This document shows positions 12,540 through 31,852 of a stretch of 42,870 nt of DNA, one piece after another. Numbering within the stretch: position 1 is the first letter of the stretch; the number at the start of each line of letters is the position of its first letter. Made by a program: the position numbers and the translations under genes. Below the pieces are notes generated by a model. The model worked only from the letters and a program-made list of their open reading frames with translations. It was not told the origin of the DNA and did no database searches. Source of the stretch: Bryobacteraceae bacterium CoA2 C42 (lineage in GTDB: Bacteria > Acidobacteriota > Terriglobia > Bryobacterales > Bryobacteraceae); NCBI GenBank assembly GCA_019931245.1, contig JAINDL010000074.1, positions 1-42,870 of the forward strand. The letters are read 5' to 3'.

Positions 12540-12744
12540 AGCTATCAGGGTACTGTACGGCAGCCGTGCCGGGAGGCCGGGCCAAAGCACAAACCGATTA
12601 CGGATTTTCGCGGCGCGAGCGCCGGGACTTCCCGGTCCGGCGCGGATGAGAACTTAGAGGCCGGACCCGGACTACCATACTGAAATTACATAGTAAGTCC
12701 TTAGTGAGGCGCCCGTGCGCCGCGCTCAGGCCATAGGTATCAAC

Positions 12745-13524
12745 ATGAGACACTTATTTCGACTTTCCATTGCCGCGGCTGGGTTTGCCTTTGCGGCGAT
12801 CAGCCCACTAAGTGCGGCCACGCTGATTACAAATGACCGTGGCGAATGGCTGTCCGGCGTATCCGGACTGCTCACGCTGAATCTCGACACTTTCGCTAGC
12901 GGAGCCACGGGCGGCTCCTTTGCCGTGGGAAACACGGTGCAACCCGGCAATATGGCTTTCTACAGCAATATGAACGGTTATTTCAACAATAACTTCCAGA
13001 TTACCGGGTCCACTGGTTCCGGGAACTTTCTCGGCCACACGCTGGCTTCCGCTGCCCAGACCTGGAATAACTGGGGAACCGGCGCCTTCCTGTTGAGCGA
13101 CACCAAAACCAGCACTAATTCGATTTCTCTCCGCGTGACCTTCCGGTCGGGCGGCGTTGCGACCCCGGTAAACGCCTTTGGTTTTGCGCTGGGATTAGGC
13201 GGCAACAGCGGCGCTTCCGGAACGATCACGGTGACGCCGCAAGGCCTGGGACCGCAGACGGTGACGACTTTCAATCAAGCTTCCGGCCTTAAGTTTTTCG
13301 GCGTCACGAGCGATACGCAGACGTTTGGTTTCGCCGACATCACGGTGCCCGATGTGAGTCGTTACATCATTCTCGATACCATCGAACAGGGCGTCTACAC
13401 GGCCCCCCCGCCCCCGGCGCCGCCCCCCTCGGAGGTTCCGGATGCGGCGACTTTGTTGTGCGTCGGCACGGGCTTGGCGGGGCTGGGTATGTTGCGCCGC
13501 GGGCGGGCCATGGGGTTGATTTAA
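12745..13524 (+). CDS. PEP-CTERM-like secreted protein of unknown function
   Basis: The 259-residue protein starts with a signal peptide (MRHLFRLSIAAAG to LSAA, about residues 1-25). It continues as a Gly/Ser/Thr/Asn-rich beta-type region typical of PEP-CTERM surface proteins, has a Pro-rich spacer, and ends with a sorting-like segment: VPDAATLLCVGTG, a hydrophobic helix, then MLRRGRA. The usual VPEP is here VPDA, a relaxed form. Proteins of this kind are processed by an exosortase and linked to exopolysaccharide or cell-surface structures; no exosortase gene is in the window. The start at 12745 is preferred over the upstream GTG (12715) because it gives a standard signal peptide. A strong terminator follows. 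Confidence 0.75.
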   Translation: MRHLFRLSIAAAGFAFAAISPLSAATLITNDRGEWLSGVSGLLTLNLDTFASGATGGSFAVGNTVQPGNMAFYSNMNGYFNNNFQITGSTGSGNFLGHTLASAAQTWNNWGTGAFLLSDTKTSTNSISLRVTFRSGGVATPVNAFGFALGLGGNSGASGTITVTPQGLGPQTVTTFNQASGLKFFGVTSDTQTFGFADITVPDVSRYIILDTIEQGVYTAPPPPAPPPSEVPDAATLLCVGTGLAGLGMLRRGRAMGLI

Positions 13525-13623: not shown

Positions 13624-14841
13624 TTAGCGGGGTCGCCGGAACACGGAGGTGTCCGGATGGTAGTGGCGCCAGTCGAACCAATAATCCCGGATCAGTTCGA
13701 TCCGGTCAAGACAGGCCCCGGCGACTGGACCCGCGATGGCGCAGCCTTGAAAGTTCCAGCGGCTGCCGGTGACCTCGTCCATGAGCAGAGCGCCCGGTTC
13801 GCCGGTGAGGCGGTAGAAATCGGTCGGGACTCCGGAGACGGGCAGTTGCGCGCGGAAGGCGCGGATAGAACGGTTATCCGGGCCGAGGACGATGGCGATG
13901 GGCAGGGCGCCGAGACGGTCGAGCACGAGTGCTTCGCGGAGGAGGAGTTCGTGTGGGTAGGCCCGGGAGGCGCCGCCGGCCTCCACGCCCAACACGAGGG
14001 TGCGGGGCTGCAGTCCGGGCTCGGCGTAGCTCAGCACGGTGGGGGTGTTTTGCATCTTCGCCTCCCAGTCGCGGGCCGCATAGCGGGCGGCGTCGCGGGG
14101 CGCAGCGGCAAGCAGGGTGCCGGTGGGCTGTTCGGCTTTCCAGAGGCCGAAGGTCAGTTCGTCGGAAGGGACGAGTTCGAGTTGGCGCCCGGCCAGCGGC
14201 CCGGAGATAGCAAGGCCGCTGATCTGCTGCCAAAACGTACCGGTTTGCTCATCGCGCATGAGAAAGTTCTGATTGTTGATGCCCGCCAGCCGGAAGGTTA
14301 ACGTCAACTGGGCCACCGAACGCTTCCACACCAGACCGGTGTGACAGAGCGTTCAATACGTTGCCACGATGGGCACGCCTCCGGCGGTGTCGTTGACGAT
14401 GTGATGGTAGGCGATGGCGCGGACCGGATAGGCCCGGGCGTCGCCGCGCTGCTCGATCGCCAGCACCATCTCGTCAGCGGCCAATCGGGCCACCGCGGCC
14501 GATTCAAAAGCGGGCTGGTCGATGGGGTGGAACATCAGTTCAAAGACGTTTACCCGGACAGCGGCAGAGGCCAGAAGGGTGAGGAGCAGGGCGCCGGCAG
14601 CCGCGACTTTGGCGGACCGGCGGGTCAGGAGGTGGCGGAAACGGTAGATGGCCACGGCCGTTGTCCCCAGACACAGCAGGGTCCCGGCGGGCCGCAGGCG
14701 CAGGACGAGCAGCGCCGCCTCCAACTCGCGCGGGCCCTGGGCGCGGAAGGGACGGATGACGTAGAGGGGATAGAGGGCGCCACAGAGCGCGAGGCCCGCG
14801 CAGGCGGCCAACAGAAGCCAGAGGCGTCGGTGGTTCATCAC
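13624..14841 (-). CDS. DUF3179 membrane protein with in-frame UGA: probable selenoprotein (Sec163)
   Basis: Two open segments, 14841-14356 and 14352-13624, are in the same frame and separated only by one TGA (14355-14353). Joined, they give 405 residues with the full DUF3179 pattern. There are three hydrophobic segments in the first 110 residues, then ARAYPVRAIAYHHIVNDTAGG, then TY-(UGA)-TLCHTG, then NNQNFLMRDEQTGTFWQQISG, a second ARAYP-like repeat (SRAYPHELLLREAL), DEVTGSRWNFQG and a C-terminal WFDWRHYHPDT. The family normally has TYCPLC here, so the UGA replaces the first Cys and the second (Cys166) is kept, giving UxxC. A SECIS-like hairpin follows. Export orientation and redox function are inferred. 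The rival explanation is a nonsense mutation. The start is GTG at 14841 or ATG at 14838; TATCGT lies 6 nt before the GTG. Confidence 0.8.
14321..14355 (-). promoter_or_regulatory. UGA codon with bacterial SECIS-like hairpin
   Basis: Reading the mRNA (minus strand), the UGA at 14355-14353 is followed after 15 nt by the loop GGUCU (14337-14333). The loop is closed by a perfect 6-bp stem CACACC/GGUGUG. A lower stem CGCU/AGCG (14351-14348 with 14324-14321) is separated by a small internal loop (CUGU/GA). The E. coli fdhF SECIS, as I recall it, also presents GGUCU in its apical loop 18 nt after the UGA, where SelB contacts the G and U. Bacterial SECIS elements sit directly downstream of the UGA inside the coding region, as here. 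The spacing is slightly short and no 5' bulged U is obvious, so this is strong but not conclusive. Confidence 0.65.
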
Positions 14842-26566: not shown

Positions 26567-27706
26567 ATGAAGTTGCCGATTTTCGGATCGCTGTTGCTGG
26601 CCGCGGGGCTTTACGCCGCTGATGTGAAGGTGATGGAGCAGATTGTCGCCAAAGTGAACGGCGAGATCATCACGCGCACCGAGATTGACCGGATGACCAA
26701 GGCGCTCTACGACGCCGCGCGGGAGCAGAAGGTGCCGGCCAACGATGTCGAACGGATGGTGCAGGAGCGGGCCAAGGACCTGCTGCGCGAAAAGATCGAT
26801 CAGATGCTGCTCGTGCAGAAAGGCAAGGAGCTAAACATCAACGTGGACCCGGAGGTGACCAAGCAGATCGCCCGGATCCAGCAGGGAACCAAGATTGCTG
26901 ACCAGGAAAAGTTCCAGCAGTTCGTCAAAGAACAGACGGGCATGAGCTATGAGGACTACAAGGCCGAAACGAAAAACCAGTTTCTGACCCGGCGGGTCAT
27001 CGGCCAGGAGGTGTCCTCGAAGATCTCCGTATCGCGGGCCGAAGCCCAGAAATACTACGACGAGCACAAAGCCGAGTTTCAGCGCGAGGAGCGGGTGTTT
27101 CTGCGCGAGATCTTCCTGAGCACGGATGGCAAGGACGCCAAGGCGCAGGAGGCGGTGGAGAAGAAAGCAAAAGACCTGGTTTCAAGGGCGCAGCGGGGCG
27201 AAAAGTTCGGCGAACTGGCGCGGGAAAACTCCGAATCGGAGACGGCGCAAAACGAGGGTGAGCTGCCTCCCTACAAGAAGGGCGAGCTGTTGAAAGCGAT
27301 TGAGGATCTGATCTGGCCGGCGCCGCGCAACACGGCGATCGAACCCATCAAGCGGCCGAACGGCTGGCTGCTGCTCTTCGTCGAAGAGCACCATCAGGCC
27401 GGTCTGGCGGACTTTGAAGAGGTACAGGGCGAGATCACCAATAAGCTCTACGGTCCCCGCATGGAGCCCGCCATCCGCGCCTATCTGACCCAACTCCGGC
27501 AGGAGGCGTTCCTCGAAATCCGGGAGGGGTTCACCGATTCCGGCGCCGCCCCCGGGAAGTCGACCAAGTGGACCGACCCGGCGCAGTTGAAGCCGGAGAC
27601 GATCACCAAAGAAGAGGTGGCGATGCAGGTGCGCAAGAAGCGTCTGCTGTGGGCGGTGCCCGTGCCCGGAACGGCTGTGAAGGTGAAGTCCACCTCGAAG
27701 TCCTAA
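26567..27706 (+). CDS. SurA-like periplasmic peptidyl-prolyl isomerase
   Basis: The 379-residue exported protein has a signal peptide (MKLPIFGSLLLAAGLYA), a SurA-type N-terminal chaperone region (VKVMEQIVAKVNGEIITRTEID, about residue 20), and a PpiC/parvulin domain at about 165-275. A positively charged C-terminal tail follows. In the parvulin domain, FLREIFLSTDG, ARENSESETAQNEGELPPY and PIKRPNGWLLLFVEEH correspond to family strands. SurA-type proteins assist outer-membrane protein folding, which fits the LptD context of this genome. It lies 7 bp after mfd, and the next gene starts directly after its stop codon. Confidence 0.82.
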   Translation: MKLPIFGSLLLAAGLYAADVKVMEQIVAKVNGEIITRTEIDRMTKALYDAAREQKVPANDVERMVQERAKDLLREKIDQMLLVQKGKELNINVDPEVTKQIARIQQGTKIADQEKFQQFVKEQTGMSYEDYKAETKNQFLTRRVIGQEVSSKISVSRAEAQKYYDEHKAEFQREERVFLREIFLSTDGKDAKAQEAVEKKAKDLVSRAQRGEKFGELARENSESETAQNEGELPPYKKGELLKAIEDLIWPAPRNTAIEPIKRPNGWLLLFVEEHHQAGLADFEEVQGEITNKLYGPRMEPAIRAYLTQLRQEAFLEIREGFTDSGAAPGKSTKWTDPAQLKPETITKEEVAMQVRKKRLLWAVPVPGTAVKVKSTSKS

Positions 27707-28762
27707 ATGAAGCAATTCGCCAGTCAACTGGAAGCCAATCAGACCGTCCAGAGCACTTTTCTCGTGCTCCAAAAGGAGATCCGGCAGAAAAAGACCGGGG
27801 AGCCGTATCTGTCGCTCACGTTGGGCGACAAATCGGGCGAGGTGGATGCCAAAATGTGGGACCACGTCGCCGAGGTGATGGACACCTTCGACCGGCATGA
27901 TTTCGTCAAGGTCCGCGGGCTCGCGGCGGTTTACCAGAACCGGATGCAGTTAACCGTACACAAGCTGCAACGGGCCGACGATCGGGAGGTGGATAAAGCC
28001 GACTTCTTCCCCGTTTCCGCGCGCGACCGCGGCGAGATGTTCGCCGAGTTGCGGCAGCACGTCGACCGGATGACCGACCCCCATCTGAAGGCGCTGATTG
28101 AGGCCTTCTTCCGCGATCCGGTGCTCGTCGAGAAGTTCCAGACCGCCCCGGCGGCCAAGACGATTCACCACGCCTGGATCGGCGGACTGCTCGAACACGT
28201 CCTATCGCTGGCCACCCTGGCCGCGTTCACGGCGCGGCACTACCCCGGGGTCAACGCGGACCTGCTGCTGACCGGGGTGATTCTGCACGATATCGGCAAG
28301 ATCGAAGAGCTGACCTACGACCGCGGTTTCGGCTACTCGGACGAGGGACAGCTGGTGGGCCATATCCTGATCGGCCTGCGGATGATTGAAGCCAAAGTGC
28401 GGGAGGTGCCCGGCTTTCCGCCCCGGCTGAAGTGGCTGGTGGAGCATCTGGTGGCGAGTCATCACGGGGAACTGGCCTTCGGGTCGCCCAAGACGCCGGC
28501 GACGCTCGAGGCAATGCTGCTGCATCACCTGGACAACCTGGATTCCAAGGTGGAGACGGTGCGGCAGGTAGTCGGCCGGGATCCGCTCGTCGAGGGCAAC
28601 TGGACCGCCTACGTGCCGTCGCTCGAGCGGACGCTGCTCAAGCAGGACCGCTATCTGCAGGCCGCGCCGCCGCGGCCGGCCGCGGCGGCGAAGCCGGAGC
28701 CGGCCCGCCCGTCCACCGATTTTGCGAGCAAGCTGGCCGGGGCGCTGCTGCCAAAGGGATAG
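27707..28762 (+). CDS. OB-fold/HD-domain 3'-5' exoribonuclease (YhaM-like)
   Basis: The 351-residue protein combines an N-terminal OB-fold nucleic-acid-binding domain (about residues 15-95; KKTGEPYLSLTLGDKSGEVDAKMW) with an HD phosphohydrolase domain. The HD domain has HHAWIGGLLEHVLSLA at about 150 and the HD pair in LTGVILHDIGKIEEL at about 190, and SHHGELAFGSP supplies a further His. This is the YhaM architecture, a Mn-dependent 3'-5' exonuclease on RNA and ssDNA. A Pro/Ala-rich tail follows. The ATG abuts the previous TAA with no gap, indicating translational coupling. Confidence 0.82.
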   Translation: MKQFASQLEANQTVQSTFLVLQKEIRQKKTGEPYLSLTLGDKSGEVDAKMWDHVAEVMDTFDRHDFVKVRGLAAVYQNRMQLTVHKLQRADDREVDKADFFPVSARDRGEMFAELRQHVDRMTDPHLKALIEAFFRDPVLVEKFQTAPAAKTIHHAWIGGLLEHVLSLATLAAFTARHYPGVNADLLLTGVILHDIGKIEELTYDRGFGYSDEGQLVGHILIGLRMIEAKVREVPGFPPRLKWLVEHLVASHHGELAFGSPKTPATLEAMLLHHLDNLDSKVETVRQVVGRDPLVEGNWTAYVPSLERTLLKQDRYLQAAPPRPAAAAKPEPARPSTDFASKLAGALLPKG

Positions 28763-30043: not shown

Positions 30044-31047
30044 TAAAATCCCCAGCGCCATAGATTGGCGCCCACGGTATACCCGGCACCGACGGCGGCA
30101 AACAACACGAGATCCCCTTTCTTCAGCCTACCGTGGCTGACCGCATCGCGGGTCGCCAGCGGGATGGTAGCGGCGGTCGTGTTGCCGTAATCGTGAATGT
30201 TGATGACGACCTTTTCGAGCGGCATGCCCAGGCGCTCGGCTACGGCCTGGATAATCCGCCGGTTGGCCTGATGCGGCACAAACACCGAGATATCGTGAAC
30301 GGAGAGGCCGTTGCGGTCGAGAAGGGCCTTCGAGGTATCCGCCATCTTCGAAACGGCATACTTGAAAACCTGATTGCCTTCCTGGTGCACGTAGTGCAGT
30401 TTCTGATCGATCGTAGCGTGCGAAGGGGGCATGCGGCTGCCGCCGGCGGGCATTTTAAGCGCATCGCCGCCGCTGCCGTCCACCTCGTTCAAATAGTCGA
30501 GGAATCCCTCTTCGCCCTCGCCGGCGGTTTCGACGAGGAAGGCGCCGGCGCCGTCGCCGAACAGAATGCAGGTGGCCCGATCTTCGTAGTTGAGAATTCG
30601 CGACATGGTATCGGCGCCGATGACCAGCACCTTTTTCGGCTCCCCGCTGGCCACCAGGTGGGCGGCGGTGGTGAGGCCGTAAACAAAACCCGAGCAGGCC
30701 GCAATCAGATCAAAGCCGAAGGCACCTTTCGCGCCAAGCCGGTCCTGCACCAGACACGCCGTCGAGGGGAAGAACATGTCGGGCGTCACCGTACAGACGA
30801 TGATCGCATGCAACTCCGTCGCGGGGATGCCGCGGGCGGCCAGCGCAGCCTGGGCGGCTTCCACGGCCATGTCCGAGGTCGCCATCTCGGGCGGAGCGAT
30901 GTGTCGCTGGCGGATCCCGGTCCGGTCCACAATCCACTGATCGGAGGTGTCGACCATTTTTTCAAGGTCCTGATTGGTCAGGACGGATGAGGGGGTAAAA
31001 CAACCGAGGGCGGTAATTTTGGCTTTACCCGAGAACGATTTTCCCAA
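30043..31047 (-). CDS. fabH: Beta-ketoacyl-ACP synthase III
   Basis: The 334-residue enzyme starts type II fatty-acid synthesis by condensing an acyl-CoA primer with malonyl-ACP. The Cys-His-Asn triad is visible: FDLIAACSGFVYG (Cys at about residue 117), VPHQANRRII (about 260) and HDYGNTTAATIP (about 290). It also has SDQWIVDRTGIRQRHIA. The start is a TTG at 31047 with GGAG 6 nt upstream, because no ATG precedes the conserved N-terminus. The MIOX gene is translationally coupled to it. It is divergent from the metallopeptidase gene across about 58 bp. Confidence 0.95.
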   Translation of the reverse strand: MGKSFSGKAKITALGCFTPSSVLTNQDLEKMVDTSDQWIVDRTGIRQRHIAPPEMATSDMAVEAAQAALAARGIPATELHAIIVCTVTPDMFFPSTACLVQDRLGAKGAFGFDLIAACSGFVYGLTTAAHLVASGEPKKVLVIGADTMSRILNYEDRATCILFGDGAGAFLVETAGEGEEGFLDYLNEVDGSGGDALKMPAGGSRMPPSHATIDQKLHYVHQEGNQVFKYAVSKMADTSKALLDRNGLSVHDISVFVPHQANRRIIQAVAERLGMPLEKVVINIHDYGNTTAATIPLATRDAVSHGRLKKGDLVLFAAVGAGYTVGANLWRWGF

Positions 31048-31105
31048 TGGAGCTCCGTGCGACGAGGAAGACGGCGATGTCGGCTATCCGCTATGTTACC
31101 TTTTG

Positions 31106-31852
31106 ATGTTAATGCAAGTCGAGAGCGCTGTTCTGTTTGAGACTCCGGCCGAAATTTGCGCCCGCGTCTTCCGGGGCCTGCGTCCCCGGACGCCGGTGCC
31201 CGAGTTCCGGGTCAGCTTCCGGAAATTCGCCAACGCCACCAGCACCATTCGCAGCCGCGGCGGGGTCATGGAGCTAAAGATTACCGACCTGCTGGCCGAG
31301 GCCCCGGCGCCGATTCTCGAGGCCCTGGCGGTCATTCTCCTCTCGAAACTCTTCCGCAAGCCCGTTCCCCCGCACTATAACGAACAATACCGGCGCTATC
31401 TGAACCGTCACGAGGTCCGCCGGGAGATCACTGAACTCCGCCAGACGCGCGGCCGCAAACGGCTCGACCCGCCGGCCGGGCAGACCTACGACCTGATCGA
31501 CCTTTTCGACGCCATGAACGCGCAGTTTTTCGCCGGCGCGCTGCCGCGGCCCACGCTGGGGTGGAGTCGGCAAACTTCGCGGACCATCCTCGGCCACTGC
31601 GACGCCGCGCACAACACGATTGTGCTGTCGCGGATCCTCGATCAGCCGCACGTCCCGCGCTTTGTCGCCGAGTACGTGATGTACCATGAGATGCTCCATC
31701 TGGTGCACCCGGTCGAAAGCCGGGGGGCCAAGCGGTCGATCCATCCACCCGTGTTCCGGGCCGCGGAAAAACAGTTCCCGCAAATCAAGGAAGCCAAGGC
31801 GTTTATCCGCCAGCTATGCTCCCGCTCCTCACCCTATTCGCTCTTGTTCTAG
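31106..31852 (+). CDS. SprT-like zinc metallopeptidase
   Basis: The protein of about 248 residues has the zinc motif YHEMLHLVHP (HExxH at about residue 193) and a following His in KRSIHPPVFRAAEKQF, as in SprT/YgjP-like gluzincins. It also has DLIDLFDAMNAQFFAGALPRPTLGWS, the family opening (substrate-cleft strand). The N-terminal third (FRKFANATSTIRSRGGVMELKITDLLAEAP) is typical of a bacterial subgroup of unknown role. The start is uncertain: ATG codons at 31106 and 31112 are both possible, and neither has a clear Shine-Dalgarno sequence. Its 3' end overlaps the DUF547 gene by 37 bp. Confidence 0.75.
   Translation: MLMQVESAVLFETPAEICARVFRGLRPRTPVPEFRVSFRKFANATSTIRSRGGVMELKITDLLAEAPAPILEALAVILLSKLFRKPVPPHYNEQYRRYLNRHEVRREITELRQTRGRKRLDPPAGQTYDLIDLFDAMNAQFFAGALPRPTLGWSRQTSRTILGHCDAAHNTIVLSRILDQPHVPRFVAEYVMYHEMLHLVHPVESRGAKRSIHPPVFRAAEKQFPQIKEAKAFIRQLCSRSSPYSLLF

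Follow-up and report, generated by a model that had tools for sequence, protein, structure and literature searches.

A probable DUF3179-family selenoprotein with a near-invariant SECIS-like hairpin in a Bryobacteraceae genome and its relatives

The window analyzed here is a stretch of 42,870 nucleotides of contig JAINDL010000074.1 from Bryobacteraceae bacterium CoA2 C42. On its minus strand, at positions 13624 to 14838, lies a candidate selenoprotein gene of the DUF3179 family that encodes 404 amino acids from an ATG at 14838 (an alternative start, GTG, is at 14841). The frame contains a single in-frame TGA, within TY-UGA-TLC at 14355-14353, and then stays open to a TAA at 13626-13624. The Pfam profile PF11376 (DUF3179) matches residues 107 to 398 of the read-through protein, and hence both sides of the UGA, with 210.1 bits against a gathering cutoff of 27 (E = 6.4e-62). 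The initial annotation, which described two halves in one minus-strand frame split only by the TGA, with conserved DUF3179 sequence on either side, is thus borne out on both counts; its numbering of Cys166 is correct from the GTG, and from the ATG, which we use throughout, the UGA codon (14353-14355, minus strand) becomes Sec162 (Sec163 counting from GTG) and its partner in the UxxC motif becomes Cys165 (codon 14344-14346). A further near-invariant position, His145 (codon 14404-14406), is His in 187 of 191 aligned rows and in 156 of the 159 that are distinct. The protein has no match in NCBIfam, a sequence search for solved structures of it returned none, and Rfam gives no match within the window at the gathering threshold.

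A search of 300 relative genomes yields a DUF3179 match in 113. The set aligned around the UGA codon comprises 191 loci, one row each: 80 table places, 30 further loci, 80 named loci (the best 80 of 184 from a separate protein search), and the window. Of these, 159 are distinct over 300 nt around the column, and the codons assigned to the column by alignment are TGA (111), TGC (39), TGT (7), AGT (1), and AGC (1), corresponding to 111 selenocysteine (Sec), 46 Cys, and 2 Ser forms; because the relatives were partly picked for carrying TGA (70 of the 80 table places were pre-marked with it), this TGA share is not a population frequency. The alternation of UGA and Cys codons that the initial annotation proposed to look for is therefore present. 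Frames were cut at TAA and TAG, such that these codons cannot appear inside a row; a TAA or TAG break falls at the UGA column in none of the 191 loci, and the five loci that are in two pieces are all cut away from the column. The same TGA occurs at 92% protein identity in the best-scoring named relative, an acidobacterial metagenome-assembled genome (L133), and again at 76% (L169) and 64% (L134) identity. Three residues downstream, Cys is present in 110 of the 111 distinct Sec genes and Thr in the remaining one (L053).

Sec forms fall into at least four motif variants: TYUTLC (that of the window), TWUSYC/TWUGYC, TWUPLC/UPLT, and a distant TFUVVC (29 segments that do not fit the motif pattern were left out of this count). 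Among the best 80 of the 184 named loci, one Sec form lies outside the Acidobacteriota, in the myxococcote Nannocystis sp. RBIL2 (L206). The TFUVVC group (L130, L131, and L132) is DUF3179-like but distant and has its own hairpin, and two of its three members are in the genus of the window; it may represent a separate selenoprotein subfamily.

Immediately after the UGA is a SECIS-like hairpin (14326-14344, minus strand), recognized by folding and conservation, with a 7-bp stem and a 5-nt apical loop, GGUCU (14333-14337, minus strand), that is conserved in the Sec forms of this subfamily. The energy at the window is -20.6 kcal/mol for 50 nt. The rules for bacterial SECIS elements in the accessible text of PMC13188914 specify a loop of 3 to 9 nt, a G in the first two loop positions, a stem of 4 to 16 bp, an MFE of ≤ -7.5, and a spacing of 16 to 37 nt from UGA to apical loop. 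In loop, stem, and MFE, the window hairpin lies within these ranges, and its spacing is 15 nt when only the intervening bases are counted, or 16 when the count runs from the last base of the UGA codon to the base that opens the loop. As such, it shares with the bacterial SECIS model of that paper (its Fig. 2A) a 5-nt loop starting with GG, a 7-bp upper stem, a strong energy, and a position directly after the UGA, but differs in that its loop, 15 nt from the UGA, sits at the short edge and in that its sequence is nearly invariant among relatives.

Conservation of the hairpin was counted for the motif type of the window alone, in 121 Sec rows (62 distinct 36-mers, with some genes of the 121 occurring in both collections) and 13 Cys rows (12 distinct). 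The loop GGTCT is present in 60 of the 62 distinct Sec sequences versus none of the 12 distinct Cys sequences, and all seven stem pairs can form in 58 versus 3. Pair 18-24 is C-G in 58 distinct Sec sequences and G-C in 2, both sides having changed together; the coupled change is found in L117, L119, and L121. Deviating Sec sequences are L175, with a broken pair, L198, with the loop GCUCU, and L211, also with a changed loop. Across the phylum, the hairpin pattern with at most one mismatch occurs in 15 of 297 genomes and has a count of zero in every control listed. In minimum-energy folds, each Sec motif variant has a hairpin after its UGA, differing in sequence and place, whereas the lower stem that surrounds the UGA in the window sequence is not kept in the folds of most relatives.

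Codon usage near the UGA is narrow. In 52 Sec genes, 80 conserved columns offer a choice of codon; their relative codon entropy averages 0.82, and positions -1, +1, +4, +5, +6, +7, and +8 from the UGA have the smallest values of all. The Gly at +6 is encoded by GGT in all 52 Sec genes, although GGT makes up 13% of the Gly codons in these genes; in the 13 Cys rows, the same Gly is GGG (9), GGC (3), or GGA (1), and never GGT. These codon patterns support the view that the constraint near the UGA reflects selection at the RNA level. Tests on the single sequence give a weaker signal: among synonymous recodings, 3 of 3,000 match the observed folding energy and 394 of 20,000 give all seven pairs plus the GGTCT loop, and against dinucleotide shuffles, the fold is modest (z = -2.1, with 7 of 200 shuffles as good). 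For the Tyr directly before the UGA (14356-14358), 119 of the 121 Sec rows use TAT, versus 6 of 13 Cys rows; this codon lies outside the seven-pair stem, and the hairpin does not account for the preference.

We investigated the history of the Sec/Cys column with a quickly built maximum-likelihood tree that covers 112 of the 191 rows, 90 of them Sec and 22 Cys. The state changes at least four times in this tree, in which the neighbors of the window include Solibacteraceae and Bryobacterales. Twelve Cys rows with TYCTLC, including Edaphobacter, form one group (SH-aLRT 99) nested inside Sec rows, and L181, a further Cys row, is joined to a Sec row. Read most simply, Sec gave way to Cys on two occasions within the subfamily of the window. 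The tree puts the three TFUVVC rows within the type A Sec group, on a branch 2.9 long; this placement carries a long-branch warning and was not used. The Cys form of Edaphobacter lichenicola (L161, L163, L168, and L171) is the same type of protein, with TYCTLC, but has TGC in place of the TGA of the window and has lost the GGU of the loop. The E. lichenicola strains (Cys) and Nannocystis sp. RBIL2 (Sec) thus offer a natural Sec/Cys series on one scaffold for testing what selenium contributes.

The genome that contains the window (6.07 Mb in 237 contigs, 97.7% complete) has the machinery for selenocysteine insertion, which the initial annotation had named as a point to check: selA (450.6 bits, above the cutoff), selB (366.8 bits, in an open frame of 791 residues), selD (355.6 bits), and a tRNA-Sec with anticodon UCA (70.1 bits) are all present. 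Among the relatives, tRNA-Sec is detected in 241 of 300 genomes and in 62 of the 66 with a Sec form; under strict search filters, it was not found in the other four (G013, G023, G094 at 96% completeness, and G231 at 98%), nor in four of the six genomes with a TYCTLC or TWCGxC Cys form. A Fisher test beside these counts (P = 0.0013) ignores relatedness and is given no weight. The selD gene itself (contig C189, 34150-35070) also contains a TGA in frame, within AGUASKLSPKVL, after which 45 nt fold into a hairpin of -17.2 kcal/mol; the SelD of this genome is probably a selenoprotein too, and Sec-containing SelD is a known kind, listed as UxxK in PMC13188914.

Taken together, the Sec machinery, the TGA/Cys column, and the conserved hairpin support the proposal of the initial annotation that the UGA is read as selenocysteine, and on this comparative sequence evidence, Sec is almost certainly inserted at 14355-14353. 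A nonsense mutation or a sequencing error in a Cys gene, leaving a pseudogene, finds some support in the Cys that 46 of the 159 distinct loci have at the column. Such an accident, however, should leave close relatives all with Cys and no hairpin, whereas they keep the TGA along with a conserved downstream hairpin. The same TGA at 92%, 76%, and 64% identity, the lack of any other stop, and the frozen codons near the UGA are features that a pseudogene would not keep, and the conserved column and hairpin rule this explanation out for practical purposes. A regulated stop, in which a short three-helix protein is the main product and read-through a minor one, could make use of the hairpin as a read-through signal, but the downstream part is conserved as protein, the Cys forms make the whole protein, and the genome has the full Sec machinery; we regard it as very improbable. 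With insertion of Sec as the preferred reading, what many acidobacterial genomes present as a broken gene is a conserved gene for a selenoprotein, which annotation that halts at the UGA would cut in two.

The DUF3179 family is already known to include selenoproteins and is not new in this respect. The initial annotation had mentioned a selenoprotein form of DUF3179, correctly: PMC13188914 (Table 1) and PMC9312934 each tabulate a DUF3179 selenoprotein (PF11376, UxxC/T), and both papers credit Zhang and Gladyshev (2007), working on an Olavius algarvensis symbiont, for it. The listed protein shares the Pfam family and the UxxC motif with the one described here, and its UxxT form is also present in our set (L053). 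The word stem "Acidobacteri-" does not occur in the main texts of PMC9312934 and PMC13188914, and the accessible portions of the literature naming DUF3179 or PF11376 report no function, Acidobacteriota, or Rieske-like fold. Judged by title, none of the listed matches on selenocysteine and Rieske concerns such a protein. For the phylum, a 2006 survey counts three selenoprotein families and four selenoproteins in Acidobacteria (PMC1794560), and a 2025 predictor paper gives three known selenoprotein genes and no new ones for the acidobacterium Occallatibacter riparius (PMC12013277), as far as the accessible text of each goes. What we add is the spread within Acidobacteriota, at least four Sec motifs, a nearly frozen SECIS, and a structural model.

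AlphaFold2, applied to an alignment of 51 rows (the window plus named loci), returns a model with a mean pLDDT of 96.6 and a pTM of 0.92. Three N-terminal helices are predicted (residues 3 to 27, 36 to 66, and 74 to 93; 14560-14832, minus strand), which we take to be membrane helices, although hydropathy windows exceed 1.5 at the first and third only. After the helices come two halves with the same strand order in the model, a repeat that is also recognizable by sequence (BLASTP E = 4e-10; hhalign probability 99.7, E = 1.5e-24). The first copy (14089-14529, minus strand) has a Rieske-like beta fold in the model and is the only one to contain Sec162, in Sec162-x-x-Cys165, whereas the second (13639-14013, minus strand) lacks a CxxC. 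In the first domain, A136, Y137, P138, H145, D150, Sec/Cys162, Cys165, D196, W203, and G213 are among the positions that hardly vary. The second copy has Cys366 and Cys376 (13711-13743), both present in 38 of the 51 rows and both absent from the other 13; some of the subfamily may have a second pair of thiols here. Positive residues ahead of the first helix and between the second and third lead us to infer that the domains are outside the cytoplasm; membrane anchoring with an external domain is likely.

The model consists mostly of strands, and by title there is no thioredoxin among the best 50 of 217 Foldseek rows for the full model or the best 50 of 158 for the domain. Neither the full model nor the first domain alone has a match in the PDB at E = 0.001. 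For the first domain, the top 15 rows are Rieske ferredoxins and oxygenases (probability 0.77 to 0.98, best E = 0.26), 12 of them parts of carbazole 1,9a-dioxygenase. TM-scores in these rows rise to 0.64 (5cxm) when normalized by target length and to 0.47 when normalized by query length; 3gce aligns with a probability of 0.98, a TM-score of 0.55 by target length, and an rmsd of 3.1. The 15 rows include 8h2t, which we count among the Rieske proteins. By Foldseek, the DUF3179 domain resembles Rieske proteins and NirD (5cxm, 3gce, 1fqt, and 2jo6) in its beta fold and in the order of strands and loops, but differs from them in its tandem arrangement, in lacking their ligand set and any profile match, and in E-values that are nonsignificant. 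Membership in the Rieske family by sequence was rejected after hhalign comparisons of the DUF3179 domain sets with 20 Rieske sequences, which offer no support (0.5, 0.7, 0.1, and 0.4%), and PF00355 (Rieske) finds no match in the protein. Where Rieske proteins have C-x-H plus C-x-x-H, this family conserves just His145 and Sec/Cys162; the last position is Cys165, and at residue 143, A, G, or S occurs in 130 of the 159 rows. Given the absence of a profile match and of the ligand set, we claim a Rieske-like fold, which the model makes likely for the first domain, and not Rieske membership. This fold prediction provides a structural lead for an uncharacterized family.

We propose that the SelA, SelB, SelD, and tRNA-Sec of the genome read the UGA, directed by the hairpin at 14344-14326, to yield a protein of three helices followed by two tandem, predicted Rieske-like beta domains. 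The helices would anchor it in the inner membrane with the domains facing the periplasm, where Sec162 and Cys165 may form a redox pair (a selenenylsulfide) that passes electrons to or from a partner in the cell envelope. As a whole, a DUF3179-family Sec gene for a Sec-Cys redox protein of the envelope is the best explanation and, in our estimation, very probably correct; on the narrower choice between a Sec-Cys redox pair and a metal site, we lean toward the redox pair.

The competing view of the active site, that Sec162, Cys165, and His145 hold a metal or an iron-sulfur cluster in a Rieske-like site and do not act as a dithiol-type pair, draws on several structural parallels. Rieske proteins such as 3gce and 5cxm head the Foldseek list for the single domain, the strand order of the model fits, and the Sec-x-x-Cys comes after a strand, as does the Cys-x-x-His of Rieske proteins. 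His145 and Sec162 are 17 residues apart, compared with 16 for His and Cys in the Rieske protein encoded in the same genome (L214), whose loop reads CPCHTSSF, versus UTLCHTGLVW in the DUF3179 protein. All of the PDB matches nonetheless fall short of E = 0.001, the first 15 rows for the domain are dominated by one enzyme and have TM-scores at or below 0.47 by query length, the profile comparison is null, and where a Rieske site would need C-x-H, position 143 is mostly a small residue and the fourth ligand would be Cys rather than His; a metal site is accordingly unlikely. Somewhat less likely again is a broader formulation in which the protein is a tandem Rieske fold on the outer face of the inner membrane whose Sec-x-x-Cys and His either bind a metal or cluster or replace it. 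That UxxCH might be a variant attachment motif for heme c is suggested by a His at position 166, directly after Cys165, in 91 of the 111 distinct Sec genes and by a survey of heme motifs in Idiomarina, whose accessible text places a DUF3179 protein among the CXXCH proteins (PMC9230427). Yet the other 20 Sec genes have N, G, or R at this position, and the 46 Cys genes have G in 23 cases, H in 13, N in 8, and R and S in one each, a variability that makes His166 a subfamily trait, and no cytochrome c domain is recognized among the fold matches listed, two of which are chains of a bc1:aa3 complex with the subunit unassigned; heme attachment there is a very slight prospect. The Sec-Cys redox pair remains the reading that we prefer.

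On the plus strand, an amidohydrolase gene (PF04909) runs divergently from the DUF3179 gene, and among the other genes nearby are those for GFO/IDH/MocA enzymes, TPP enzymes, and an ETF subunit; none of these points to a partner. Context was clustered for open reading frames of at least 110 residues (stop to stop) around the 62 of 80 named loci with more than 8 kb of sequence, excluding those of the DUF3179 stretch itself. This analysis found no conserved partner gene, the largest clusters covering 10 of the 62 loci, and these clusters resemble lineage synteny, for which reason function was not assigned from gene context. In one genome (G006, contig C231), a Rieske gene (27653-27835) is located about 3 kb from the DUF3179 gene (30619-31416). 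At 12715-13521 on the plus strand of the window, a predicted protein without a Pfam match ends in what we take, by eye, to resemble a PEP-CTERM sorting signal.

Among viral models, Foldseek matches an uncharacterized protein of Indivirus ILV1 (E = 6.6e-5, TMq 0.66) and one of Hokovirus HKV1 (E = 0.025); judging from these model comparisons, both are possible carriers of DUF3179-like domains.
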